Shown piece by piece: positions 284 through 38,288 of a DNA stretch of 64,000 nt; position 1 is the stretch's first letter; the number at the start of each line of letters is the position of its first letter. The stretch comes from Allacma fusca (Eukaryota > Arthropoda > Collembola > Symphypleona > Sminthuridae), in the NCBI GenBank assembly GCA_947179485.1, contig OX359249.1:8556001-8620000 (forward strand), read 5' to 3'. The notes beneath the pieces were generated by a model. It ran no database searches. It was not told the DNA's origin and was given only the letters and a program-made list of their open reading frames with translations. A program made the translations under genes and the position numbers.

Positions 284-3200
284 TTAAGCACACATAAAGA
301 ATTGTAAAACTTGAGTTACCCAGTCATCCTCATCTACGTCGTTTGGATTTTCTTGTCCAATCTCAAAATTTAAGTTAAATTTTTCTCTTAAGGCCTGCTC
401 GACCTGGTGAATTCACGGAAATTATATCAAAACTACTAAATAATAGCAAGCTAGACTCAAAAGATATGAAAAGTAATAATACTAGATCATTCTTATGTCA
501 CTCTTTTCTAACTATCACACGACTAACCTTCTTCTGGCGCCGAACAGCTTCAGCGTTGTTCAAATTTGAGTTGGCGGACAGTGCAGTAGCAGGCTTAGAC
601 GGCTTCACAGCCTTAGGTTCTACTGCGACCGGTCGAGACGAACCGTTACCACTGGCATCAGTCACTAATGAGATTGAAAATAAATTACACACACCGTCAT
701 GCTAAATAGTCGAATCTCAAATATTTTCAGCTTCATGAGCGTGCAAGGATCATACATGATTTCATGTTTGGAGGTTTCAGACTGATCCGGTAAGGGTCGT
801 CATTGTTTCCAGAAAACCATTCACGACTTGTCATTGTCGGCTCCCACAAAACCTTTGTAGGTGGGAATAAATCGTCTTGGAAAAATTCACTCTGCAAATA
901 GTGTCTCCGTATTAATTAAGATATCAATCATGTGCACCGGGAGGCTTTACAAAATAATGTGTCATGAGTGAAAAGGTACAGGACGTTAGATAAATAAGCA
1001 ATACAAGCGAAATTACTTCCAAGAACGAAGCTGTAAAATTTTACCTTTACTCTTGGAACTGTAAAACTCCAAATTTCAACAGAAAATTCAGTCAATCGGA
1101 GAGCCCGAGCGAATTCAACATTTTGAACTTCACAAGCATTCTTCTTAAGAAAACTGATTCCTTGATGAGGACCTGTGCAGCGATGGTGACTCAAAGGACG
1201 AAGATGAGGGGTATAGCTCATGACATCAAAAGCAAAAATCGTACTATCACCCTAAAATATAATCGATATAAACCTTTTTTTATCTTTTGCAGTCGGCACA
1301 ATGCTATATAATCCTAACTAGTGTATATGCTGTCATTTAAACGGGAAACGAATCAACTTACCCGTCCGCTTAAAAATAAAATCGACGAGTCTTCATCATA
1401 ACATGGCACAAGTATTGCAGGTGAAACATCCAGAGACACGGTTGCAACGCTTTCTAGTGTCGCAGAATTGTACATATGCAACTGGCGCTCGGAAGAGCTA
1501 AAAATAAATTAAATATTTGGGTTAGTTAATAATCTGAGTAACATTAATATTCATCAGTTTACTTTGTCCTTGACTATTACCGATCAAATCCAGCAACAAT
1601 TAGAAATTTTCCTTCTAAAACCCAAATAACACGCCCGCCACGAACACCAGCGGGTCCTTTGCCACAAACTATTTCATTTATATCTTTCCTTGGTTCGTAA
1701 ACTCGTATTTTCCCATCCTTACAAGCTGTAGCAAACTTTGATCCACAAGTACTCCAGTCAAAACTGAATATTTGTATCTAAAAAAGTATTTTAATAAATT
1801 AATACAACGAATTGTATACATCTCGATAAATGGTTTCTTGTGAGACGTACTTGATCCGCAGGCAGATGCAAAATGATCATGTCTTGCTGAAGTGCTAAAT
1901 CCCAAATACGGATGGACAAGTCGTAAGAACCCGTAGCTAGAACGTCTTGTGCAAGAGGATGAAAGCGAACAAAATAAACTTTCTCTGCATGACCCGCAGT
2001 ACTCCATTCTGGCTTATTTGTCTGCTCTGTTAAACCTCCAACCGGGATCCTCCACAACCAAATTTTCCCATCATCTGTTCCAACAGCTAGACGTTGGTTA
2101 TCAAAGGGATCCCACATAAAATCCATAACTTTGGTCCCATGTACTAGAGCTGGAATGACACCGTCTGGTTGTCTCCCAGGTTTTCGAATCTCGAATATTG
2201 CAACTTTGCCCCCTGGTGTATTTAGGGGAACAGCAACTCGGTCCGGATTTGCTAAAGATAGAATATAACATTCTTGACATGCAATTTTCATGACGAAATA
2301 AGCCGGAATAAATGAAACTTTTGGGATGTAGTTTAGGTCACTTACCTTGAATGAGTTCACTTTCACCAGGACATGTTGTGCTGATGTTTCGCAAATTTTC
2401 AATGTGAAACTTTTTGTGCAACGGTGCTGCTTTGAAATTCCGGAACTTTGATACTTGTCCTAATACAAATACAGAGTTAATAAAAATAAATCCTCTTATC
2501 CGAGCTTTTAAAAAAAGCAGCTTACCGAAAACTGTGTCAATCCGCTTAGCAGTTGTCTTCGAAGGAACATTAGATATTACTTCCTGAGATTTAACGTTTA
2601 TGTTCGAATCCAACTTCCCCGGACATTTACGTTCAGGCTTCACGATTGGTTTGCTTCCCTCCGACATAGGCAGAGAGGAAACTGGAATACTATCAATCTG
2701 ATGAGATTTAGATTCTACATGAGATTCACTGGTACTTTCTCTTTCTACTGTAACAGCGGACTTATGAGAATCTTCCTCTTCCACGAAGGAGTTGTGCTGG
2801 AACATTTTCAGTCGATCAGCAACCGTCATTCTAGGTTTGCGAGAAGATGATGCATCTGGCACTGATGGGACTGAAGATGATCTGGCCTCGAAAGCTTTAC
2901 GACGATCTGACGTGGACACGTGAACCACACTATTTTGATCTGGCTTATCGTTTCCATTTTCCGTTCCGTTGGAACTGTGTCCATTGGAATGAGCTATTTC
3001 TTGGTCATGTTCATTATTATTGAGCGTATTAGCAGGATCATCCCTTGAAACTGGAGTCCCTGAAATTACTGATTCAGTATCTTCCATTGATAAGCTTCGA
3101 GGATAATCGGAACCTGAATTTCTCTTGGATAAGAACGAGCTGGGCGTTCTTAAAACGGATACGTTTGACTGCTATAATCAAAATATAGATTATTTTCATT

Positions 3201-4975
3201 ACAAATACGAAACAAAAATAACGCAATAAATATTTAAAATGTTTTACATTGTTAACTCTGGGTCTTGGAATGGGTACAGCCCGACTTCCAACTGCTTCTT
3301 GAACTTCGTCGGCTGAAGATGAACCAGATGAAAGCGACTTCTTCCTTGGCCGTGGCTCCGGAACTTCTTTTTTATACAAATCTGGTTCCGGTTCAATCAT
3401 GCGAGATATTTTTGCTTCTTCTTCCTTCTTGCGAACACTTAAACTAGGTTTATATACTGGCGTTACAGCATTGGCTTTTCCGTTAGGATTCAGACTCACT
3501 TTGGTTACGGCTCCATTAAAACCCCCCATCCACAGAGATGCGGTGCCACTCGTAACCGTACCTCTTGTATCAGGGTAAAGATCAGAATGAAAGTCCATAT
3601 ATGACTTCCTCGGAACGTGATAAGGAATTGGAATGATCGAGGAAGCAGTCAATTGTATGATACGATTAACTTCCGTTTCCATTACTTTAAGAGCTCGTTT
3701 AGGTAACAAACAAGCTCCCTTTGTTTGTTCCCCGTTGTACCTAAATCCTTCAGTCAGATAAGGTTCACTCTCAGAGAATTCCATGTATGTTATAGAGGCG
3801 TCACCTCTTCCAGCTATGAAGAGCATATTTGTGTCAGCGTCATACAGAGGCATCAAAATTCCTGTAGAACTGTCAAAGTTTAGTGTCTTGACTGGTGAAT
3901 CGAAATTTCTCGAGTCACGAACAAATATTTGGCGTATCCGACTCTGAAAATCAAGTAAGAAACGAACTTTCATTGGTTTGAATTGCTCCAAACGCACGTA
4001 TCCAACCGGAAAGTGATTTATATCTTTGGTTTATAAGTTTCAGGGGAAATCAGTATACCGAATCAAAACCGGTTGTCAATATGTAAGGAGAATCTCCCAA
4101 CCAGAGCACTCTGGAATCTTTTGCATTATCATGGCTAGTTGCAGACGCAATGCTCTGTTTTCCTCGCAGATCAATAATTCGTACTATCTTGTCTTTTGCA
4201 CAAGTTGCAAGTAAAGTTCCAGCTTTGGTCCAAGACATTGACATAATTGTTCCATCATGCAAGTCATTATCTGTAAACAGCAGATAAACATCATGTAACA
4301 AAGTATTAGGTTACTAGTAGCAGTGCCTACAGTCTGTGTCGCTGGCACGCTCTTACCGTGAAACAATTCTTTGTTGTAAAGGATATCCCACAGAGTCAAC
4401 GAGTTTTGCGAGGAGTACCCAAGCAAGTATTCCGCAATTGGATTGAACACCACATTCTCCACCCGGCGATGTTTAGAACTGGTGACGCACTCAGGGGTCA
4501 AAGTAGACAAATCATTCAAATCATTTGGACCAATGGACCAAATTTTAACCGTCGAATCTGCTGAACATGTGGCAAGAAGACCATCTTCAAATGGTGAAAA
4601 ATCGAAATCAGTCACCAAATCGCTGTGGGCATTTAGAATTGGCAGAGTTGTCCCAGTAATGGTCGAGTCTGAGTCTAATGCAACTACCCCCAGCTGAGAG
4701 CCTGTATTCATTAAACTCTCTCATTCAACAATAACTCAAAATAGGTTTTACTTTCTTAAAAGTCACAGACAAAACACAAATATTACACAATCCACAATAT
4801 AATCATCTGACTCACCGGTTGCTTGAACATTGAAGGCTACGAATGCAGTCGAGGCTTTAATGTAACTTCCAGAGCAATTATAAGAGCCAATAGTCAAGTC
4901 CCTCACCCATGGTTCGTGCTTAGAAATCTTAGGAGCTGCATTTTTGTACTTCGATGCCTTGAATCGACGTGACAT
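284..4975 (-). CDS. pod1: POD-1 / coronin-7 family actin regulator (13 coding exons)
   Basis: Long coronin with two tandem WD40 beta-propellers. The family binds F-actin; fly and worm POD-1 act in cell polarity and axon guidance, mammalian coronin-7 in Golgi trafficking. Exons in transcript order: 4975-4816, 4701-4357, 4270-4059, 3943-3248, 3171-2526, 2459-2346, 2251-1851, 1777-1581, 1497-1362, 1251-1045, 891-756, 664-528, 403-284. All junctions are GT-AG and in phase, giving 3,507 nt and 1,168 residues. It starts MSRRFKASKYKNAAPK. Propeller 1 (about residues 20-430) includes HSDLVTDFDFSPFEDGLLAT; propeller 2 (about 690-1,095) includes GHAEKVYFVRFHPLAQDVLA and SYDLSIRIWDL. The linker (about 430-686) is Ser/Pro/Arg-rich. 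The C-terminus keeps the acidic DVDEDDW tail, then about ten extra residues. ATG 4975-4973 is chosen because the codon before it in the open frame is GTG; an AG at 4992-4991 suggests a spliced 5' UTR. Family certain; exact 3' end less so. Confidence 0.95.
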
Positions 4976-8774: not shown

Positions 8775-10132
8775 TTATGTGGGAGGTTTCTTCAAAAATC
8801 CAATTCTTCGCAAGTATCCGACGATGAATGGTGTAGCGGTGAGGGTGATGGCAATTCGTGCCGGAGCAAAAACTTTATGAAAGGCATACGCAACAACAAA
8901 TGTACTTGCTCCTTGGGTAATTTTACTCCCCATGATGGCTTGGCTCACTCCTATTCTCTCCAAAAGAGCAGGTACGTCAAGGCCACTGTGAATTACAGAA
9001 ACGACATCATTTTACACAATACGAATACACAATGACAAAATTAATCCGAGCATAACTGCGGACTCCGTCCACCGTCCGTGAAGACGCCTCACAGACTAGA
9101 TACACTTTTGATCAAAAGCAAAATCATCACACACGCCTTTCCCCTTAAAGGAACAGGAACTAGGTCCAAGAATCCATGAATAAAAATGGGTAACATCAGA
9201 ACGTCAGTACATAAAACGTACAATACTTTCGAAGAACAAAAAAGGATCTAACAATGCATCGTGCAATATACGAGACTTGATGCAAGTAGCCCAGGTTTAC
9301 TTTTACTTTAAATACTACTCTCCTGTAAATACTTAAATCCACTTTCCACTCATTCAAAACAAATCTCGATGAGGTTGTTTCTAATAAAAATGCATCTAGT
9401 CCATTTTACTTCTTCATCGACAGTGCCCCAAAATGAGAGTGGAATCTGAAAGCACACAGCACGCCTCAATAAATAATTAATGAAGTATATATATATATAT
9501 ATATATATCCCACAATAATTATTTTAGATTATGCCCTTCCACACATCAAATTCAAAATCAATAATCACATGAATAACTCACCAAGATACTAGAGCATAGC
9601 AGATACCTACTGACGCCGAAGATATGATTACATGGAATACGATCACAGTGGCACCATAATCTTTTATAGCTTTTTTAAATTTATCCTTCGTACTGAGTTT
9701 AGCGGCTGGAGCCCCTTCTTTAATCGGAGAGGATTCATCCTTGACATCATCATCATTTTTGGGACTGGTACTTGGACTTGAACTTCCTGAAGTTGTCACG
9801 GTCCGTTTGGAACAATACGATCCATCCGGAATGCTTGTCATGGAATTATAATAATTATTCCCGTTCATAAGTAAGCTTCGGCTGAGCTTCTGATTCCTGT
9901 CCGAAGAATAGCACAACTGATGAGGAGAATTGGGTAACTTTTGTCTATTACATAACAACGATGCTGCTGACGTTGACAAACATTTGTACGGACTACTTGG
10001 GCCCGCTAAGTCAGAGAAAGTCAATAGATTTTTCTTATTTACAAGTGTCTCTAACTGCGCACATTTCAATCCCGTCTTGGAAGTATTTAACCTCAATAGT
10101 AACTTTAATTGACAACTTCTAAACACAGCCAT
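8775..10132 (-). CDS. FAM210B: FAM210B-like mitochondrial membrane protein (DUF1279), two exons
   Basis: Exons 10132-9582 and 8985-8775, GT-AG, phase 2, giving 762 nt and 253 residues. The N-terminus (MAVFRSCQLKLLLRLNTS) is basic, Ser/Leu-rich and lacks acidic residues, as expected for a mitochondrial targeting sequence. A Ser-rich spacer follows. The DUF1279 domain begins near residue 145 with STKDKFKKAIKDYGATVIVF and its first membrane segment (about 160-182). The second exon carries the second hydrophobic region, with STFVVAYAFHKVFAPARI and the ending GFLKKPPT, closer to FAM210B than FAM210A. FAM210 proteins sit in the inner mitochondrial membrane; FAM210B has been linked to iron/haem handling and respiration in vertebrates. 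The 596-bp intron carries an AT microsatellite. ATG 10132 is the first in frame. Family call is firm; the A/B split is judged from memory of the C-terminus. Confidence 0.9.
9486..9508. repeat. (TA)n microsatellite in the FAM210B intron
   Basis: Uninterrupted TA dinucleotides of about 23 bp, 74 bp downstream (in transcript sense) of the intron donor. Confidence 0.95.
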
Positions 10133-11378
10133 GACAAAAACACGTCTTCCAACTTTTCAGGAACTGTAGTTCGTGCGTAAGCTCACGATTGGACTGTTGG
10201 ATGCGGAGCTCTTCAAGGATGAGACCATGTGTATGCATTTGCCCAGCGTAGTTTCTGAATTGTGAACTGATAACAAGTCAAAACGTGAAAGCGAAAGTGC
10301 TGACGTTTAAATATTATATAACTAGATATATAAATGCATGTACACCTTTAACAAAATCCTATAGGCAACTTTGTCTATAATGTTCCCTCTCGGGACAGGG
10401 ATTTTTATTTTTTATCCGCTATAAAAACTATCTGTCATACTCCCTAGCTAGATTCCATTTAATAAGCATTATTTGTATGGGGCTGGGGGACCAGACGAGT
10501 TAGACTCTGCTAAGTTTGTACAGCCATTTGACGATGAGCGGACATTTGGTATACAATGGGCTAAAGGCTAAAACAACGGTTCTGTGCCAATTAACACTAA
10601 TAATAATTAGACAAATAAATACTGATTTATTTGTATTTACCATGGAGATGCATCGACTTTGTACAAATATGAAGCCCAGGCCCAGACTCTCAGTACTTAC
10701 CTATGAAGATTATAGTCACGCGTCACGCGCTTTACCCCACCGTAAATGCAAATGTACTCACGTGCATTGCCAATCTGAAGTGCGATAAAAATATTATGTA
10801 AATAGAAGATTATGTAAGCGTAATATGTGAGTGTAATGTCTTTTATTAGATTGAAGGAATTAAAATAGAGAATGCGTATTAACAGCAAAGTAAGGAGTAG
10901 GATCGCCGTCAGGATCTACATGATATGATACTAATTGTCGCTAATCATATTCAAACTGAAGACACTTCAGCACTTCATGATGATTTCAGTTCATGATGAT
11001 ATTCGTAAGCATATGCTTATTCACATTGTAAAAATACACTCCCGCTGTATAGAAGAGTCATCATTTGACATTTCCTCTGTAGGAGCAAACGTATTTGGGC
11101 GCATACCCATTTAACGCAATGTTAATTTTTTTTCCTTGTAAGAGGATGCCGCTGCTGAAAATGCCAAACTTTTCTTTTCTCTTGTAAAGAAATTGATAAA
11201 AATGTTTTTTCTCCATTTTTAGAAAAAAATGCCCCTACGTAGAAGACTACATACGAAGGGGCTGCAAAAGAGAGAAAGCCCAGGCTTTTGGACATTCATT
11301 TTATTTCATTATAAATTACTGTAGAGCAAAGAACATTGAAAGCAATCCTAAAGGCGAAACGCTATTAGTGGGTAGAGT

Positions 11379-13667: not shown

Positions 13668-14000
13668 TGTGATTTAAGTTTTTTTCTGTTGATCGCATCC
13701 TCCCCTCAAAGGACAGTGTGAGTGTGTGAGTCTCGGAATGAGGACAACAGTTGAGTCTTGTGAATTCAAATTTGTTTCAAAACCAACTGGAATTTCCACT
13801 GAATGAATGTAAAAATATTGAATCCCAGCTGTTGGTCACGGGTGAGTGAATTGGACAGAGTCTCGAATAAGTTGAGTGTAGTTGTGCGTGGTACAATTTG
13901 GAAGAGTAAATTACTGGATTTTAAAGATTTCTAGATTATAATATTGTTTTAGTAGAGAGGTAACTAATTACCAGTCAGCTCATTACATTCAAGACTTAAA

Positions 14001-15589
14001 ATGCAACAACCGACCTTAACTTCCTACTTCAAGACTAAGAAACGAACTGGAGCACCGATCGAAGACTTGAAGTCCGTTAAAGATGTAGTCTCCGACGTGA
14101 ATCGGGTACAATTCCTGAAAAAAGGGAATTTAAGCCCGAAGAAAGGACTGAGCCCAGTGAAGACGAAGATGCCCAATGTGGATTTGAAGAGATTGAAAGC
14201 CGTCGCCCGGAATTTAAAAGATTCGGCGAATAAGTTAGAGAAATTACAAGAGGAACGGAAACATTTGGAAGATGACCAAAGGAAGCAAGAGCTGGAGAAA
14301 AAACAAGAGAGTGAGAAAGGTCAGTGTAGTCCAAGAGCCATTAGAGAATTGTCCTTGACTGCACACCCGTCCCTCCAACTTCCCCTGAGATTCCGTGTGC
14401 TCAAATTACTTAATGAGGGAATGAATACTGTTGCCAGCATGTTCCAGAACAGGAATGAAACCATTACTTACAATAAGCTGAAATCAGCTGTAGAGTCCAT
14501 GACGAAGCATACTTTTAGTATAAAGACGGCTGCTAGGATGCTCAGCATTTACGATTATTTCAAGATCCTCACCCAAAAGGTGGGGAACATCAACCAATAT
14601 GTGTTCGAGTTTGAAGTGAAACTTCTACCCAGCCAATTGATCCGATTGAAAAAGAATTTTGAGCAGAAATTGATCAACTTTTGCTTGATTGAACATGAGG
14701 TAAGGAACATTTTAACGCTGGGAGAATAAAATGAAGTTATGTAGGATTTCCTGTGTGCTGTAATATTGGTCCAGAATTTGATGCAACTGTTTTTTGTTTG
14801 TAGAAATTTTTAAAGTCCCACAACATTGATGTTGATCGTACGCTTGTGACACGCTGGCACCCTTCTTTCAACATCGAAGCTCTTCAAATACCAGCTGCCC
14901 CTTTGCCTGAGCTATCTGAGAGGTTAACATCTGCAGCGGAGGTACTTAATCAAGTACGGGAAATGATGCAAGGAAGAAGTGCCGCCGCTAGTGAAGCCGC
15001 TCCGATCAAGAAAGCTCCTGTTAGTAAAAAGCCATTGAAGGGAATTTCCTCGGCACTTTTAGAGAAGGTATAGAAGTTCCACTCTTGTTAGTTGGAGTTT
15101 TTTTTCAGAAGTTTCATTTAAGCTTTGTTGTATTACAGCTATCATTTAAGCTTTTATGTAATTACAGATTCGTGATCGAGAAAAGAATCGTATTGTGCGT
15201 GACCTTACAATTCCGCACGAAGAGCTAAAGCTACAAAAGATTAAAGCTCGTCTACCGGAGTTAGTGCGAATGATTCATAACATTTTTGTTGGAGAAAAGA
15301 AAGCTGCAATTGAATTTCCAGTTTTTCTGCAGCGACTCCAGTTTTCGTATGAGAAGCTGACTGCTAGTAAGTTTGTATACTTTACCTTTCATGCTTTTTT
15401 GGTAGTTGATTATTCACTGACTTCTTGAAGTACAACATTTTTAATTTATTTCACCCAGGCGAAGTCGAGCTGCACGTTGACTATTTATTAAAGACTCAAC
15501 CAGCATGGATTCAGAAAATAAAAACCACGACTAGTGAATATATAAAAATTAATAAAACCATCCAGTGTAGTGAAATATCTCTCAAGTAG
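14001..15589 (+). CDS. CDT1: DNA replication licensing factor CDT1 (four coding exons)
   Basis: Exons 14001-14699, 14804-15067, 15168-15366 and 15459-15589, all GT-AG and in phase: 1,293 nt, 430 residues. CDT1 loads the MCM2-7 helicase with ORC and CDC6 in G1; geminin binding and CRL4-Cdt2 destruction block re-licensing. Residues 3-15 (QPTLTSYFKTKKR) form a PIP box with the basic residue four places after the last aromatic, the mark of a PCNA-dependent degron. S45 (SPKK) and S51 (SPVK) are CDK-type sites. A Lys/Glu-rich coiled coil spans about 70-107. The CDT1 fold begins near 115 (RELSLTAHPS, then LPLRFRVLKLLNEGMNT), and the C-terminal MCM-binding winged helix is in exons 3-4 (RDREKNRIVRDLTIPHEELK onward). 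It is shorter than the vertebrate protein, mainly in the N-terminal tail. Confidence 0.93.
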
Positions 15590-20286: not shown

Positions 20287-23200
20287 CTACAAGTAATACA
20301 AATACTGAGAAAGATCATCGTGGATTGTTGCCTTGACAGCCAGACCTGCCATGTAAGCCAGTTTGTGAGCGTACTGGCAGGGAGCGGGGACTGACACAGT
20401 GCCTGACCAGTTGAAATAACCATAGCATAATTTGTAGGTCAGCAACTGCAGCCGATCTGGAGGAAGTCCTTGGAAGTCATACAGAACATTGTAGTGGGTT
20501 GGACTGACAGTTCCTTGGCGAGCCACTTGAGATATAAGGAAGAAGTCATACCTGCAATAATAATTTAATAGATCACCTTAATACATCTGCATTTCAAAAA
20601 GATAATGAGAGGTCCACGTAGCATTTAACCATCAAATTGTCTGTTTCCAACCTTTCAGGTTTAGTGATCACGTCATCAACAATTGTTCCCGGTCTAGGAT
20701 TATCAAAGGCTTTGCCTCCCTTATGTAGGAAGAGTCTCGTATTGATTCTTTTGGTAACCACTACAAACGTCAGCTTGACCTCAGGCAAGCGCTCCTTGTC
20801 ATAAAGGCGTTTTAGTCCATCCTAAAGCATTTTTATAGTCGATCACAATTTTAGCCACTCAAATAAGAGCCCTACCACATCAGTCAATTATTTTAAGTCT
20901 TATTATTATTTTCGATTTTATTATTGTTTTCAAATACCTTCAACGGGACGACCTCTTGATTGTAAACTAGACTGAGCTGGCCTTCACCAACTCCATCCCG
21001 GTAGAAAATAATTCTGGAGGGAACAGTTCCGTTTGCTTTCTTATAGGCAAGAAGACACTCTGGAGTATTAAATTGAATCACATATATTATTTCCTTTCAG
21101 ACAAATTTAAAAATAACAAATTGTTTTAAATTGTTTCGGACTCATCATGTCGTTGAAGATGTTGTCGGACAATTCTTGTGATGTGGCATGGGTTGAGGTT
21201 GTGCTGTAGTAGCGGGAGCAATTTTTATTCATTGTAGCTGTCATTGCTCCGATACTCGGTGAATTCCTCGCTGCTGAATGGTAAACGTCGAAACCAACAT
21301 ACATGGCATCCTACAAGTTATTTTTGATGAGTTAAAAAATTCCATAACAAATTATTCTACTTGTGAAAGCCTTGGAAAAGACTAAATAATTATGTATACC
21401 TTCATAGGATTCGCAACACCCCAAGGCTCACCCCCCAATTTGGCATTCATCTGAATAGCAACCTTGGTGGCAATGGACATCAGTCCTCTGTTGGTTAAAT
21501 TTTTAGCCAAGAAACATTGGGACTGAACTGTTGAGAAGAACCATATTCAAATATTATTTCTTTTTAAGGATCGTTTAAGTCGGGAGCCAGGTATTTTCGT
21601 GTAGCAATTAAATGAACACTTACTTCCGTAATCATGGTAGCATGCTCGTTTTACAGCAGCGTAGTTATCGATTCGGTTGTTTGGCAAGACTATGAAGATC
21701 ATTCCAAGTTTCCCCCGGTGTTTTGTCATAACCTCATGTATGGCCTGTGAGAATTCTTGAGTCCTCCTTCCATCAATGCCCTTCCTGTAATAAAAATAAA
21801 GTGCTCAGGGGATTTCTAGATTGGTTTTGATTGTAATGCACTAAATTAATATCCTAAGATTTTTACCTTTCTCTCGGGTCAGAAATATGGAATTGTAAAG
21901 GGGTGCTGACTCGTTTTAAGGTATTCAAGAAGCCATCCACAGCTCCCATGTCCCGTCGGGGAACAATAATTACCCATTCCTTCAACGCTACGGATACCAT
22001 CATGGCCTCTGTTGAAAATAAATATTAAATTCACTCCCTTTATTCCAATGTAAAAGTGCTGAAAGAAACGACTACATCAATGTATTAAATTAATGGTTGG
22101 AGTGGAGTAAGTCTTAGGATTTTACTTTCTCGGAAGGCTCTGGTGAAGTCGCCATTGTCATCAGCACCGAAACCTTGATTATTGGCAAAGCCTAGTTTTT
22201 CTGGTGGAAGAATTCTCCCTGGTAACTTCACCATTTCTTTCTCAATTCCTAGACCCCATTCTTCCCGGTATTCGCGTATCTTCATTGAAAAAAAAAACAA
22301 AATTCAGTAATTTAGGAAATCGCGGACACAAAATTTTGAAAAGTGCCATTTGCGGAGGCGATCCTGATTAAAACTCACTCTTTCTCAAGTGCAAGTGGCG
22401 CTGTAATTTTATCCGACCAAGTGCATAATTACACATAAGAATTAGTGACGAATTATTTGTAAAGCAAGAAAAATGAAAAAAATTACGTCAGGATTGTTTT
22501 GAACTCGACTCATAAAATTTTCAATCATGGCCACCCGTCCAGATGGCGGAGCGTGCATATGTTCACCAAGGCTTTTCATGAGGGAAAAGTTCCCTCGCAT
22601 GGAATCCGTCAAGCCCGTACTCCGACAGAGTTCAGGAATCAAGCAAATATTATCTGTCCGATTATTTCGGATTTGCCACTTTGTTGGCAAAGAAATAAGC
22701 ATGGGTTGATTGTCGTTATTAGTTTCAAGGCCGTATTTTTTGAGGAAATGCTGCTTGTACGCGACATCCGTTCCATTCATTTTAAATGTATGTGTGGGAC
22801 GCATTTGAGGGTCAATGTCATCTATTCGAAATGTTTTCGAATTGCATGTCATCACTATAGTTCCCACCAGCTCATCCTTCCATGCCCTCAAAACATCTGC
22901 TTCACTTCCATTCCTTTCCAAGCAATTTTGTCGGATACGGTTCATGACTGCCAGGACGGAGTCAGTCCGGAGAACCTTGAAGGCAGTGTCCACACATAAT
23001 AGGAGGGACTTCTCATGTTGCTCAATGACTTGGAACAATCCAGGCCAGAGTTCGAGTCCGTAAGTTGGAATATTGATTGCCATGGTGTCATCAAAGTGAT
23101 TTCTTCTTATACATTTCAGCTGGAGTTTCTTCAAGATGTTCCGGATGAATCGATTGTAGAACATAATGTAGGTGTGGCTGGATGGGGGAACTTGACCCAC

Positions 23201-24763
23201 GTGCTTTATAGTGACAACTGAGGATTCGTACTTTCCTTTCGGGTCAGTATGACTAAAAGAGATTGGACAGTTGAGTTGGACCATGGAGTACATTGCATTT
23301 CCTCCATCGAATATATAGCCAATTTTCGTTTTCAAGCTGTTGCACCAGTTCCTTAAAGCAAGGTTGCGAGCCCTTTGTATTTCTGAGTTGGGCTCAAAGG
23401 AAACATGATACTGGTACAGGATAAAGCGATCCGCACCTTTCGCCGTGACAGCATAATAGTTTGCAACCAGGTTCACCGGCTTTCCACTCGTACCTTTCTT
23501 ATTTTCAAGCTCTGCAGGACGTGATCTAAAAGTTTCAATTTCTCTGCCAGAGGATGAAGATCCGCTTGGGGTCGATTCGGAGATACTTTGTGGTGGCTGC
23601 CCACTTGAAGTAGTGGCTGCTGATGGAGCAAGTGTTGGTGTAGTTTGAGCAGCACCTGCTGGACGTTGAGGTATTGTAGTCTGCGTAGGAGGGGCACCAA
23701 TCTGTCTTGATGCAGTTTCAGATAATTGGGGACCCAAACCCCAAGCTCGGCCTGGAGGTGCTGCAATCTGCGTTGGAGGGGCACCAATCTGGCTTGGTGC
23801 AGCTTCAGTACGTGGGGAAGGCAAACCCCAAGCTCGACCTTGAGGTGCTGTAGTCTGTGTAGCAGGGGGTCCCATCTGTCTTGGTGCAGTTTCAGATAGT
23901 GGGGGGCCCAAACCCCAAGCTCGTCCTGGAGGTGGTGCAGCTTGCGGAGCCGGGAAACCAACTTGACTTGGTGGAGCTTCAGATCGCGGTGAGCCCAAAC
24001 CCCAAGCTCGTACTTGGGGTAATAAACCTGATACTGGAGACAGGGGTGAACTGGATGATGGCGGTCCTTGTCCATGTTCTGGCTGTTGAAATCTTAGCAA
24101 TCCTCGGAAACCTTGAGATCTTCCTCGAGCTCTGCCTTTTGGAACAGAACCATGAGGTTGTGTTTTGGATGGATCTTGTCTGTCCTGAAAATACATACAA
24201 ATGCAACAATGAACACTTCTCATAAACTACGAAACTAATCCTTAACCATTTCCTTACTTCTTGAAATTTTACATTGTTAAAACATACCGTGAGGACAAAG
24301 TATTATTACTATTTTATATAATTTTGCTTTTACAGTACGTACATAATTTTAGTGTCTACAATATGACTTCATATTAAGAACTCTGGAAGAGAATCTGTGG
24401 GAACATTGTCCCCTTCTAAAATTTCATTTTTAATCTGCCTACGGAAATGTCTACTCACTTTCCAGTAATTAAAATGGCTAAATTTTACTGGAAATAATAT
24501 AAAACCCTAAAAGCCATCTAAATTATTCCAAATTGTTTTCAAAAGAAAAATTCTCAAACATAGTCCTTAAAATTCAATGGGGTGTTTTAAAGCAGTCATG
24601 AAGAATTCTATTGACATTATTTAGGGCAGCTAAAAATTTGCTCATGTTACCCCAAATTTTTTTGCACGTTTCAGAACGCGTGCTCAATGTGTTGTTACTT
24701 TTGCTTTTAGTATAGATATCTAAAATTAACATAGTTAGTAGGATTAGAATTTCTGCTTACCAT
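20287..24763 (-). CDS. piwi: Piwi-clade Argonaute with N-terminal RAWGLG repeats (10 coding exons)
   Basis: Piwi proteins bind piRNAs and silence transposons, chiefly in the germline. Exons: 24763-24761 (ATG only), 24184-22487, 22279-22126, 22008-21867, 21784-21624, 21527-21400, 21310-21142, 21059-20938, 20821-20652, 20551-20287; all in phase, 3,012 nt, 1,003 residues. Residues 18-23 (GRARGR) are a likely Tudor-binding arginine-methylation site. Four 29-residue repeats follow at 60-175. PAZ spans about 400-520 (FRIDDIDPQMRPTHTFK, then IPELCRSTGLTDSMR). The MID pocket is seen as NYAAVKRACYHDYG followed by SQC. The PIWI slicer tetrad appears intact: D770 (GFDVYHS), E808 (TSQELSD), D840 (YRDGVGEGQ), H935 (SPTHYNVLYD). 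The protein ends QYLYYL, as Piwi-clade members do, not Ago-clade. The donor at 21141 (GTCCGA) is weak but keeps phase. The one-codon first exon is inferred and is the least certain part. Confidence 0.93.
23663..24010 (-). repeat. 87-bp coding repeat, four copies, in the Piwi N-terminus
   Basis: Exactly 4 x 87 bp, encoding four 29-residue units that each begin RAWGL(G/P). Units 1 and 3 share PR(S/T)EA and SQ; units 2 and 4 share LSETA and RQ, so the array is better described as two copies of a 174-bp dimer. Pro, Ala, Gln and Thr dominate the rest. Confidence 0.95.
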
Positions 24764-26567: not shown

Positions 26568-26573
26568 TTTATT
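26568..26573 (-). terminator. Candidate poly(A) signal of Orai A
   Basis: AATAAA on the minus strand only 19 bp past the stop codon, implying a very short 3' UTR if used. Confidence 0.3.
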
Positions 26574-26591: not shown

Positions 26592-27459
26592 TTACACCAT
26601 AATAATGCTACCGTAGTCAGTAAAAATTGAATCCTTCGAATCTGACAATGAGCTTTCTTGTGTAAGATTTGATGTGTTGAGGTCCTTTAATGGCTCAGGC
26701 CATTCACGCCAGGCAATCTCCTCCTTGTGTAGCTTCTTGGTAATATTTCTAAATCTTTTTACAAAATGTAGCCTAAAATATAATCCGAATATTCCTAAAC
26801 CTATTATCACCAAAACTATAATAATTGTGCCCGCCAGGGCTCCGGTAAATGTAAAATATCGAAATTTAACCCAATTGATTGCAATCATATCAATTGCAAA
26901 TAGAAAAACGGACACAGTTCCTGCTGAAATCCAAGCTATTTCCACTAAACGGACAGTACTTCGTGTGCTTCTGTAAGTCTTTAGACCAAATAAAGTGGGC
27001 CCTCCAGTATTATTAAATTTAGCCACTTTATCTGAGAACTCTTGTAAATTAAAATACTTTAGTCGTGCCGGATCTTGCGCTTCTAAAATTTGACTAATTT
27101 CACTGTTGATGAGCTCCGAGGTTTTCAAAAGTGGGAGGATCCACATTGCAACGAGAATTACAAAACAACTAGTAACAGCTAGTAAGGAGTTTGTCACTAC
27201 GTAGAGCGTTAGAAGGTAATCATTGGCGTCCTTATTAATCTGTAGATTCACCACTGACCTCTGAAATGAGAAGGATTTTGATTACAATAATTATGAAAAT
27301 TCTTATGTAACATCAATTATTACATGGAGTTCTTACAATAGCAAATCCGGCCATAAAAGACGCTAGCTGGGCAACACGATGTAGTTTGGCTTTGCTCAGG
27401 TAAAATCTTTGACGTCGTCGGGATTCTCCTGGCAAAATTATATTTCCGTAAGGCTGCAT
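26592..27459 (-). CDS. Orai paralogue A with altered pore (two coding exons)
   Basis: Orai proteins are four-TM plasma-membrane subunits of the store-operated calcium channel gated by STIM. Exons 27459-27337 and 27260-26592, GT-AG, phase 0: 263 residues. The TM1 lead FYLSKAKLH and ASFMAGFAI match the family, but after the intron the pore reads RSVVNLQINKD: N46 replaces the filter glutamate (human E106) and R42 the gate valine (V102). Q31 replaces R91. TM2 ends VAMWILP where the sister copies have ISTCILP, the TM2-TM3 loop is about 30 residues longer and lacks the SPH motif, and TM4 has Leu at the human P245 position. The TM3 acid (human E190) is kept as Asp (FLFAIDM). The frame is open throughout with good splice sites, so it is not an obvious pseudogene. 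The start ATG is tentative; the frame stays open upstream. Confidence 0.85.
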
Positions 27460-27957: not shown

Positions 27958-28902
27958 CTAAACATCATATACGACTGGCGTCTCAAAAGATTTAGCAGAC
28001 ATTTTGGTGTTGTCACCGGAGACAGATAATGGTCGACTGGGACCAGGACTTCCGACGAATTCCGGCAATGGCGACTTCCCAAACGTGACTGCCCTCTTGT
28101 ACAAAGACTGGAAATTACTGGAATCCAAGTCTGGTGTTCCGGAATTACTGGACATTTCCAGTTGTAGCTGAATAGTCCTTTGCATTTCTTCCAATTCAAG
28201 GAACCTTTTCGAGAAAATATCGTACTGGTGCATGATTATTTTCCGATAAAATATCACACCAAAGATGAGAATAATTAAAAGTACAGGGGACATGATTGCA
28301 GTGGCGGCAATGGACGCTTCTAAACTAAAATGGGTGAATTTTACCCAGCACACTAAAATCACATCTAAAGTAAATAAAAACAAGGACACAGTATTTGCAA
28401 GGATCCATGAGAGATCAATGAATCGAATAAGAGCGTCGTGAGGAGATCGCAGGATTTCGTCACTCGGACATTTTGACATCTTTGAGACTGCATCAAGTTG
28501 GGGCAGGATACATGTCGAAATCATTATTGTCATCATGGAGGTTGCTACGAGGAGGGACGTCGTCACCACAAATGCCGTCAGCAAGTAGGGACTAGTGCCA
28601 TCGTCGTTAATTTGGAGCTCAACCGTGGCCACCTGTTTATTACCACAAACAAACAAAAATCACTCAAGTTTTTCCGAATGAATATCTTCAGCTTAAATCT
28701 GAATGATTGCAATATCACTTATAATTTTTTGACGTACAACTGCAAATCCAGCCATAAAAGAGGCCATTTCTGCTACACCCGACAATTTTGATTTGCTCAA
28801 ATGTAGCCTTCGCCATGACAGATACTCCGCTGTATGTGTATCATAGGCGATAGAAGCAAAGCTGGACTTTCTAGGACTGAAGCTGTCGCCGCCAGCCTCC
28901 AT
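27958..28902 (-). CDS. Orai paralogue B, store-operated calcium channel (two coding exons)
   Basis: Exons 28902-28738 and 28632-27958, GT-AG, phase 0: 279 residues. Pre-TM1 LSWRRLHLSKSKL is near-canonical. TM1 joins as GFAV|VATVELQIND with the filter glutamate E60 (human E106) kept. E45 lies where human R91 would be. TM2 carries MISTCILP, with Ser at the human H134 position. SPHDALIRFIDLSW precedes TM3, where Asp stands at the E190 position, and the TM4 proline (human P245) is present (MSPVLL). The C-terminus has the leucine-rich helix FLELEEMQ that in Orai docks STIM, then a Ser/Pro-rich tail ending VYDV. Likely a working calcium channel subunit; the changed R91 and H134 positions could alter gating. 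Confidence 0.93.
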
Positions 28903-29849: not shown

Positions 29850-31502
29850 CTAAACAGTGAGAACTGAATCCCTAGCATCTAAAACCTTCTTCATTTCTTC
29901 CAATTCTTGATACTTCCTATCCGAAATAATTGACTGATGTTTGACGATTTTCCTGTAAAAAACAACGCCGAAGAAGCAAACACCCAAGAGAACTGGAATC
30001 ATAATGATCGTCGCACACCAGGAGGCTGTTTCAGAAAAGTAAGTAAATTTGATCCAACACAGTATAATGACGTCTAAAGTGAAGAGAAATATGGAAACAG
30101 AATTAGCCAGAACCCAGGACACATCTATGTACCGCTGCATTCTGTCGTGAGGTGACTCATGGGGCTTCGCAAATAAGGACTGCATTTCAGCCACAACTTC
30201 CACGTGAGGAAGAATACAAGTTGAAATCATAATTGCCATCATCGTAGTACATACCAATAATGCCGTTGTCACTGTGAATGCTGCAAGGAGCATTGGGTTG
30301 GCGTCGTCATTAATTTGCAGCTCTACCGTTGCCACCTTTCAGAATGATAATAATTAACATGGTATAGATTCCCCACAAAAAAAAAACAACTGATTTTATT
30401 AGACGGGAAAGAATGAATGAATGATTTTTCAAGTTGATAGTCGCCAGGGGGACTAACCACGGAAAATCCTGCCATTAGAGCGGCCATTTCTGTAATTCCC
30501 GATAGTTTGGCTCTGCTCAGTTGTAGTCTCCTCCATGCTAAATATTCTTCCGAGTTTGGATCTTGAGCATCATCTACTGGTTTAGTTTCCTACATGAAAG
30601 CACCATTTTCATTTGTCATATTATCACTTAATTAAAGTCGTGAAGGGATTAGTCGTTTAATCCACACGTTATACAGCCAACATTTTAAAATGCCTTCATC
30701 CCACAAGGTAGCAATAAATTATTATATTACGCTCTCTCCTGAAGAGCAGCAGCCAGATGAGTAAAATTCGACTATTTTAATGGCACACTTTTAAAAAGAG
30801 AAAAAAATTTGTTGCAAACGGGAATGTGGGAGGAATATTTTTGCCCCTGAAGGATCCAAGCTCTTAATAAAATTCACTCTAAAGTTGAATCCAGAAATGA
30901 TAGAAAAATTTGGAGAAACAAAATTTACTACCACTGTTGAAGTAAAAGCCCTCTTGAGGACCAAAGAATATCCCAGGGTAGTTTCTGGTGTGGTAGAAAT
31001 TTTTACTACTTCACAAATTTAATATTAAAAGGATGTCCCGAAGGTAATTATTACTACTACGATTTGAAACGTTCAGTGGTTACTTCTTTGTTTAAAATAG
31101 ACGACATGCAAAAATTCGCATAAAATTCGGGCCCCGTTCACTTCTGTGGTTTTTTGGTAGATATTTTGGAAACAAAACAACTATCCCATATTTGGACTAC
31201 ATTTTACGCCCCCATCGTTTGGAATGGAGCGAAATGCTGCGATGGCAATACTTTTGAAGGATCTGTAGTCAATTTTAGAAGGAAGAATTAAATATTAAAA
31301 CTAATTCCCTTACTTGTTGAGGATACCGTACTACCGTTGGCACAACAGCAATTGTTGACATTCTCGTTACTGGTATGTTCCAGGAAACTGTCCGCCCCCC
31401 TCGTAAGCTTGCTGGAGGGCTACTTCGAGGGGATCCAGATGGTAAGCTCGTGGTACGAAACGGTACCGGAGTTATTTTTACAAGCTCAGTTGGAGAAGGC
31501 AT
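29850..31502 (-). CDS. Orai paralogue C, store-operated calcium channel (three coding exons)
   Basis: Exons 31502-31314, 30589-30458 and 30335-29850, all phase 0: 268 residues. The N-terminal 63 residues are Pro/Ser/Arg-rich (SGSPRSSPPASLRGGR), as in vertebrate Orai1. AWRRLQLSRAKL leads into TM1, spliced as GFSV|VATVELQINDD with filter glutamate E112 intact and E97 at the human R91 position. TM2 has MISTCILP with Thr at the H134 position; SPHDRMQRYIDVSW leads TM3 (Asp at E190), and the TM4 proline is present (MIPVLL). The C-terminal helix (YQELEEMKKVL) is short, ending soon after. ATG 31502 follows a possible acceptor (TTTTAAG) in the 5' UTR; an ATG 39 bp further up is also in frame. Closest of the three to canonical Orai. 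Confidence 0.93.
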
Positions 31503-36150: not shown

Positions 36151-38288
36151 ATGGCTGGAGGTAAAGCTAAAACTGGACGACAGAATGGTGAGAAGAAAAT
36201 GGGCTGGAAGGAGGTGAAAGAGCTCCGAAAGCCTGTGAATGGACTATTTTATATCGAAAAGATACAGCGGAAATGGGTCGGAAAAAATGGGGATATTTTC
36301 TATTATGTTCGATGGTGGGGTTACCCCAAGTAAGACTTGAGACTACTAATGTACTATGTATAATTGGTTTGTTGAGGATTTCTGTCGCGTCGACGGAGGG
36401 ACATTTTTCGGATTGTTGATATTATCAATTATGTTTAATCATGTTGATTTCAAACTGAGCGTATACATACAGTGTACTGCTGCTCTATGTGTAAACTACC
36501 AGGTCGTCTTTTGAGGGTTTTTTTCTGTATGGGGCAGAAATATTTGGATGCATTCCTGTTGACCACTGCGTAAATGGTTGGCCGGAGAGCATACCACTAC
36601 ATGAACCTAGTGTTCCTTTTAGAACTGATCTTATAGAGACGTACTGTTTGAGTAGGCTGTATTTAAGTGTATTTCCTTACTAATTACCCACTGTCTGTAA
36701 GTACTTGAGGTTGTTGAAAATAAGTTATTTCATTTATAGGACATACAACACTTGGGAACCCCCGAGTAGTTTTACCGACTGCCCCGAAGTAATTGATGAG
36801 TTCGAACAGTCACGTGAATTACTTGCTAGTAAACGGAAGAACCGGAGTGGACTCAAGAAAATACCACGGAGGGTTTACGCAAGGAGTCGCGTCGAGAAGG
36901 GAGATAATGTGATGAAACTATGTTTTGAAAACACGGAAGTGTCTGAAAAATATTCTTCAGTAACTGAAAATCTAATTGCCGAGTTAGAAGAAGCACCGGG
37001 TCATGTGGAAGTTATGACGGAAGTTGATATTCAACCCGAAGTAATTCATGAGTTCGAACAGTCACGTGAATTACTTGCTAGTAAACGGAAGAACCGGGGT
37101 GGACGCAAGAAAATACCACGAAGGGTTTACGCAAAGAGTCGCGTCGAGAAGGGAGATAATTTGATGAAATTATGTTTTGAAAATACGGAAGTGTCTGGAA
37201 AAGAGTCTTCAGTAACTGAAAATCTAATTGCCGAGTTAGAAGAAGCACCGGATCATGTGGAAGTTATAACGGAAGTTGATGTTCAACCCGAAGTAATTGA
37301 TGAGTTCGAACAGTCACGTGAATTACTTGCTAGTAAACGGAAGAACCGGGGTGGACGCAAGAAAATACCACGAAGGGTTTACGCAAGGAGTCGCGTCGAG
37401 AAGGGAGATAATTTGATGAAATTATGTGTTAAAAACACGGAAGTGTCTGAAAAAGATTCTTCAGTAACTGAAAATGTAATTGCCGAGTTAGAAGAAGCAC
37501 CGGATTTGATGGAAGTTGATATTCAACCCGCTTTGGAAGAACATGTGGACGAAGGTGTGGACAGTGACTCTAGTTCGTTGGTAATTCTGCAAACGGAGAG
37601 CATTTCAGTCGAACATTACCAGAAGATTGTCAGAAGGGGATCCGACGTCTGGAACAATGAAAACATGGAAATTCCAACGTTGGAACCTGCGCCAAGTCTA
37701 GAAGATGAACATTCCATTAGCTCAGCTGACACTGAAACCATGGAGATTCCTATTTTGGTCCTTGAGCAAAGTCCTGTAGATGATCAGGTATAAGGGTGTA
37801 GACTTTATCGAAGTGCGAATCTTGATGTCGGAGTTTTAGAATCGGACATATCAGTTTCATATTTTACATACTGTTGTTAAGATTAAATTTTTCTTTGCTT
37901 TTAGTACATCCGAATTTTAAAAACTGAGGAAATCGGAGCCCGACAGAAAATGTCTCCGAAGTTTATTGGCACAGCAGTAATAAAGAGTAAAGTTCATTAC
38001 ATAGCCACCTGCGAGGACGATGGGTGCACAGCAAGTATCACTTCCAACCTGGCTCTTAAATTTTTTCCCCAGAATGTAGTCGATTTACTGAACAAAATAC
38101 CCATAAGGTACGACTTACATTGTTGTCTTTTAAGTGACGGGTATTGCCGACTCTGGGAGGGTGGTAATGATTTTAACGATCTCTACGCCATTAGGATGCA
38201 TATTGATCAACAGCGATTCCTAATTCAGCCAACAAGTCCTGGGAATTTACTTTGCGATAATTGCTTGATGGAACTGGAGTACCAATAG
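36151..38288 (+). CDS. HP1-like chromodomain protein with tandem-repeat hinge (three coding exons)
   Basis: Exons 36151-36329, 36740-37787 and 37905-38288, GT-AG and in phase: 1,611 nt, 536 residues. The chromodomain (about residues 31-86; FYIEKIQRKW, YYVRWWGYP, NTWEPPSSF) is split by an intron after WGYPK. The methyl-lysine cage is aromatic: F33, W55, Y58. Residues 75-322 are three repeats of 84, 84 and 80 residues, each starting with the chromodomain's final helix (PEVIDEFEQSRELLASKRKN), then a basic KKIPRR patch and an acidic tail. An acidic spacer follows. The C-terminal exon (from residue 410) has KFIGTAVIKSKVHYIAT, then FFPQNVVDLLNKI, resembling a chromoshadow domain, the HP1 dimerisation module, but without the usual C-terminal Trp. 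HP1 proteins bind H3K9me2/3 in heterochromatin. At 536 residues it is much longer than ordinary HP1 (about 200). HP1 derivative likely; a rhino-like specialised paralogue is possible. Confidence 0.85.
36783..37526 (+). repeat. 252-bp coding tandem repeat, three copies (252, 252, 240 bp)
   Basis: Units start at 36783, 37035 and 37287, each with CCCGAAGTAATT. Copies differ at only a few percent of positions, including synonymous sites, so amplification is recent. The third copy loses 12 bp near its end. Confidence 0.97.

Follow-up and report, generated by a model that had tools for sequence, protein, structure and literature searches.

Our analyses show that one of three Orai genes lying in tandem in the 64-kb window (the whole stretch of DNA analysed here) differs from its sisters at the selectivity filter, the gate and the TM4 kink of the channel. 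We refer to this gene as copy A and to the other two as copies B and C. We favour, at a rough probability of 0.4, the reading that copy A arose by lineage-specific tandem duplication of Orai and was retained as a strongly diverged four-helix paralogue which, to judge from its sequence, has ceased to be a Ca2+-selective CRAC pore, is probably non-conducting and is possibly regulatory.

Three Orai genes in tandem

The window has a GC content of 0.38 and its three Orai genes are all on the minus strand; a tblastn search of the 64 kb (E 0.5) revealed no fourth copy, and Rfam and tRNA scans of the same DNA gave no matches. Against the Pfam Orai-1 profile (PF07856), whose curated cut-off is 25 bits, copies B and C score 151.5 and 160.1 bits and copy A has the lowest score, 69.8 bits, with a match (residues 13–202, E = 3e-19) that is well above the cut-off and far beyond chance. 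By homology, copy A is a member of the Orai family. Copy B (27958..28902; exons 28902–28738 and 28632–27958) codes for 279 aa and copy C (29850..31502; exons 31502–31314, 30589–30458 and 30335–29850) for 268 aa, the first exon of copy C being inferred solely from the open frame and the splice sites, and both keep the filter Glu. In 25 alignment columns the three copies agree with one another against Drosophila Orai, which fits one ancestral gene that underwent duplication within the lineage; the informative sites (4, 1 and 5) do not settle in which order A, B, C and the fly protein branched. Searches of viral_contigs (154 pattern matches) and genome_contigs (69) yielded no confirmed relative, these being viral and prokaryote DNA with little bearing on animals.

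Copy A spans 27459–26592 and consists of two exons with an intact frame of 263 aa. Exon 1 (27337..27459, minus strand) codes for the N-terminus and the first half of TM1 (aa 1–41) and is open up to a GTAAGAA donor (GCT ATT/GTAAGAA, the slash marking the splice site), and exon 2 (26592..27260, minus strand) is open from the remainder of TM1 through the stop codon (aa 42–263), with the acceptor side reading ATTTCAG/AGG and the exon start CTTCTCATTTCAG/AGG TCA GTG GTG AAT CTA CAG. The intron between them (27261..27336, minus strand) is of the GT...AG type with a pyrimidine-rich end, and it shares both its phase (0) and its place (human position 101/102) with the introns of B and C. An AATAAA signal is found 19 nt past the stop (26568..26573, minus strand). 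The gene has lost no intron and has neither stops nor frameshifts; a processed pseudogene as its origin was rejected because copy A keeps its intron.

The first-pass annotation had allowed that a different acceptor might restore the filter Glu. When the donor at 27336 was paired with the 10 AG acceptors within the next 180 nt, none gave Glu, and alternative splicing as a way of bringing it back was rejected. Three of the ten acceptors are in frame (exon starts 27260, 27239 and 27230), of which the second and third remove the filter, and a frame-shifted one (exon start 27258) reads V-S-G-E and then stops, giving 48 aa. Other donors were listed and not combined with acceptors, because the filter codon sits in exon 2. 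RNA editing could in principle turn the filter codon AAT into GAT (Asp) and the gate codon AGG into GGG (Gly), but the pre-mRNA at 27140–27420 shows no unusual structure (z = 0.62; of 200 shuffles, 144 fold equally well or better), and editing found no support.

Functional sites and overall divergence

Residues were compared in human numbering through an alignment to fly Orai (4hkr_A). As the first-pass annotation had reported, copy A has Asn at E106 of the selectivity filter (N46, codon AAT, 27246..27248, minus strand), Arg at V102 of the gate (R42, codon AGG, 27258..27260, minus strand) and Leu at P245 of the TM4 kink (L191, codon TTG, 26811..26813, minus strand), positions at which B, C and the fly protein keep Glu, Val and Pro. 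Copy A thereby lacks three marks of a CRAC pore, and its hydrophobic gate (V102/F99) combines Arg at 102 with the Phe still present at 99. To these must be added K87 at human E149 (27123..27125, minus strand), where B has Asp and C and the fly have Glu, so that the changes private to copy A are E106N, V102R, P245L and E149K.

Other oddities are shared by the whole cluster. Both S93 and S97 are Ala in all three copies, D110 is Asn, and the inner basic ring is altered at the columns of human R91 (Gln in A, Glu in B and C) and K87 (His in A, Ser in B and C). At H134, S72 of copy A (27168..27170, minus strand) aligns with Ser in B, Thr in C and His in the fly, and the TM2 histidine brake together with its TM1 partners S93/S97 is missing from every Orai copy of the cluster. 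K85, G98, F99, D112 and W176 are retained in A, B and C, and copy A keeps K85, G98 and F99 in TM1 and E173 and W176 in TM3. The putative C-terminal STIM-binding segment reads ELEEM in B and C and ELEML in the fly; copy A has no ELEEM-like segment at the aligned place, where the alignment is weak, and its stretch between TM2 and TM3 is 35–36 aa longer than in its sisters.

The nearest known system is Drosophila Orai (PDB 4HKR; P288L mutant 6AKI), which is homologous to copy A over TM1–TM4, all four segments aligning by sequence, and whose filter Glu, gate Val, TM4 Pro and TM2 His correspond to N, R, L and S in copy A. The best PDB sequence match of copy A is 6aki_A (E = 6.7e-9), given as the P288L mutant of fly Orai, probably because copy A has Leu at exactly the position mutated. 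Structure prediction was of little help: the AlphaFold model of copy A, built on a three-copy alignment, is too poor for use (pLDDT 53.8, pTM 0.34), and a control model of copy C is equally poor (54.5 and 0.34), which makes the three-row alignment the likely cause. A PDB structure search with the poor copy A model gave no matches at E = 0.001 or better; among the best 50 listed (TM-score by query length 0.13–0.32) Orai is absent, the top ones being BAR domains.

The changes are not confined to the pore. Of the 62 positions invariant in fly Orai, B and C, copy A has changed 34 and keeps 28, and in the mirror tests of shared positions B keeps 28 of 32 and C 28 of 31. Its identity to fly Orai is 42 of 183 aligned positions. 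Invariants are kept at similarly low rates in the three parts of the protein (9/18, 6/17 and 13/27), and half of those in the membrane segments, which were set by hand, survive (25/50). Seven functional invariants picked by hand fare no differently, three being lost as against 22 of the 43 other membrane invariants. With losses over its entire length, the protein gives no ground for setting the filter change apart from general divergence, and at this loss rate the loss of E106 by itself is a coin toss; on these counts a targeted change to Asn is not beyond chance, and general divergence could explain the loss. The first-pass description of the gene as otherwise intact holds for the reading frame and fails for the protein, given the 34 lost invariants, the longer TM2–TM3 stretch and the unrecognisable C-terminal segment. 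The lost invariants had been overlooked, as had E149K, the absence of H134 from all copies and the opening effect of P245L.

Constraint or decay of copy A

A relaxed or decaying duplicate, which we regard as a serious if doubtful alternative, would have lost the constraints of Orai and be drifting, perhaps unexpressed, with the filter, gate and kink changes as mere by-products. The loss of more than half of the deep invariants in every part of the protein speaks for it, as do the even hit rate inside and outside the functional sites and the weakest Pfam score of the three copies; the open frame, the conserved intron and the AATAAA past the stop speak against it.

Codon branch models, fitted to 129 core codons of A, B and C and averaging over the A branch, were used to weigh this further. 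Fixing omega at 1 on the A branch gave lnL −1263.93 and freeing it −1256.92 (2dlnL 14.0, with saturated branch lengths), so that neutrality is rejected. The free fit pushes the A branch to its length limit of 60, hence the omega value itself means little, and capping branch length at 20, 10, 5 and 3 reduces the advantage over omega = 1 to 2dlnL 11.5, 9.9, 7.5 and 6.0 (grid). When the three branches share one omega the fit is about as good (lnL −1257.12, against −1256.92 with a separate omega for A), which means that A is not found to be relaxed in comparison with its sisters, in a test that is weak under saturation; both results count against the decaying duplicate. Consistent with constraint, second codon positions are held between A and B and third positions are near saturation (identities of 0.57, 0.75 and 0.36 at first, second and third positions).

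Simulations of neutral drift point the same way. Starting from B or C and allowing 1.0–1.3 substitutions per codon, a mean of 8.5–10.1 stops accumulated, against none in copy A, and not one of the 2000 runs in each of four settings stayed free of stops; at 0.5 substitutions per codon about 5 stops arose and 0.4–0.6% of runs were stop-free. The few charges held in TM2–4 also argue against decay: copy A has 3 charged residues there, with 9.6–11.0 charged-or-stop codons expected, and values as low as 3 appeared in 0.2–0.8% of runs at 1.0–1.3 substitutions per codon and in 2.7–5.4% at 0.5. From these sequence comparisons, copy A has most likely been under the constraint of a membrane protein through most of its history, which says nothing on the latest stretch. 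It is not a long-dead pseudogene by the same evidence. Of the relaxed selection and lack of expression (a pseudogene) that the first-pass annotation had named as fatal to its proposal, neutrality averaged over the branch is contradicted, under the saturation noted above, and recent decay is possible.

What copy A may be

To our knowledge, the effects of a changed filter glutamate or gate valine come from laboratory mutants only. The passages on Orai1 mutants in the sources used here make no statement on V102R or E106N, and by title and opening of the abstract the open-licence literature offered nothing relevant on Orai proteins that are naturally non-conducting or on paralogues of Orai in arthropods, a weak negative. 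What those passages do report is that E106A, E106C and E106Q of human Orai1 are loss-of-function mutants in which Ca2+ conductance is abolished, and that a single E106Q subunit in a linked hexamer suffices to stop Ca2+ entry (PMC12893689), in agreement with the dominant loss of conduction that the first-pass annotation had stated for E106Q/A. Copy A resembles the E106Q mutant in that a neutral amide replaces the filter carboxylate, and a loss of Ca2+ permeation is expected; it differs in having Asn and not Gln, in its many other changes and in being a natural gene. By analogy with these mutants copy A is not expected to form a Ca2+-selective pore, and the earlier claim that it is no ordinary one is borne out to that extent by PMC12893689.

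The remaining changes pull in both directions. On the closing side, the cited passages list V102D and V102W (PMC7825772) and E149K and E149R (PMC7825772; E149K also in PMC12893689) as loss of function, and double mutants, in a table that is hard to read, suggest that E149K silences V181K and P245L (PMC7825772). On the opening side, V102A, C, G, S and T give an open channel, V102A remaining active even over E149K, H134A, C, S and T open the channel, with H134S and H134T constitutively active (PMC7825772), and any substitution at P245 opens it (PMC7825772, PMC12893689); polar V102 mutants are also described there as leaking and losing selectivity. R91 is described as accepting hydrophilic residues of either charge. 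The first-pass annotation had listed the Leu at P245 beside the defects, but on these reports it is an opening change. The same Pro-to-Leu change at the TM4 kink is found in human Orai1 P245L (Stormorken-like syndrome), where the channel opened by it still has its filter, whereas copy A is without that filter and has Lys at E149.

We propose, from the human mutants, that a pore with a ring of Asn and, one turn lower, a ring of Arg would neither bind nor pass Ca2+, and that E149K and the loss of the C-terminal segment would uncouple copy A from STIM. By this analogy a closed copy A (E106N, E149K, the Arg ring) is more likely than one open to other ions (P245L, H134S, the polar residue at 102), although P245L and H134S, both of which open human Orai1 in the reports cited, speak against a simply closed subunit. 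Copy A may act as a non-conducting regulatory subunit, entering hexamers together with B, C or both and reducing or altering the current that these carry. Inhibition by such a subunit is plausible by analogy with the E106Q hexamers; however, with only 42 of 183 positions matching fly Orai, assembly with B or C is not to be assumed. A likeness may be proposed to mammalian Orai2, a paralogue that moderates its partner Orai1: loss of Orai2 raises store-operated entry in mouse T cells (PMC5355949). Orai2, unlike copy A, keeps the filter Glu. How much one subunit can weigh is also seen in the report that one L273D among the six STIM sites lowers open probability by about 90% (PMC12893689).

In its strongest form, a natural 'poison' or re-tuned Orai that enters B/C hexamers and blocks their Ca2+ entry or switches their ion, the proposal is unlikely. 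If it were true, copy A may serve as a damper in a cluster whose Orai copies are without the H134 brake. A natural, retained Asn/Arg gene would test whether Orai paralogues can become dominant inhibitors, and the three copies, none of which has the H134 brake, offer a way to ask whether in nature its absence leaves an Orai constitutively open or is made up for elsewhere.

Less likely again is a channel of altered selectivity, in which pores of copy A alone or mixed with its sisters would conduct monovalent cations or conceivably anions: copy A might be kept open by P245L and H134S, the Asn filter would remove Ca2+ selectivity and the Arg ring would alter the charge of the pore. The Leu, Ser, Arg and Asn of copy A at P245, H134, V102 and E106 fit this account, as do the opening of human Orai1 by H134S and by P245 substitutions, the leak of polar V102 mutants and the passage of Cs+ by E106D (PMC12893689), but in the passages cited E106A, C and Q abolish Ca2+ conductance and are not known to give a new current in its place, function is lost in V102D/W and E149K, and we found no precedent for a cationic ring in a cation pore. 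Rather improbable is a four-helix protein outside the Orai system, neither assembling with B and C nor conducting and using, for example, the enlarged TM2–TM3 loop as a putative binding site, since the 35–36 additional residues, the missing C-terminal segment and the low identity to fly Orai are met by the retention of K85, G98 and F99 in TM1 and of E173 and W176 in TM3 and by neighbours that are Orai genes.

The window holds several other genes. An Argonaute gene (22442–24226, minus strand; PAZ E = 8.7e-23) has about 29-aa repeats of the GRAWGLG type in its N-terminal part, with an 87-bp tandem array at 23678–24011, and a CDT1-like gene lies at 13968–14729 on the plus strand; both carry introns, and from intron-bearing genes of this kind the window would be animal DNA. 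A FAM210-like gene is found at 9578–10156 on the minus strand, and WD40 frames at 1791–4720 on the same strand, one with the WD40_4 model, which we take to resemble coronin. Finally, the open frame at 36684–37793 on the plus strand contains a 252-bp (84-aa) unit repeated 2.9 times with 94% matches, and its Pfam matches, including a partial chromodomain, are all below the curated cut-offs.
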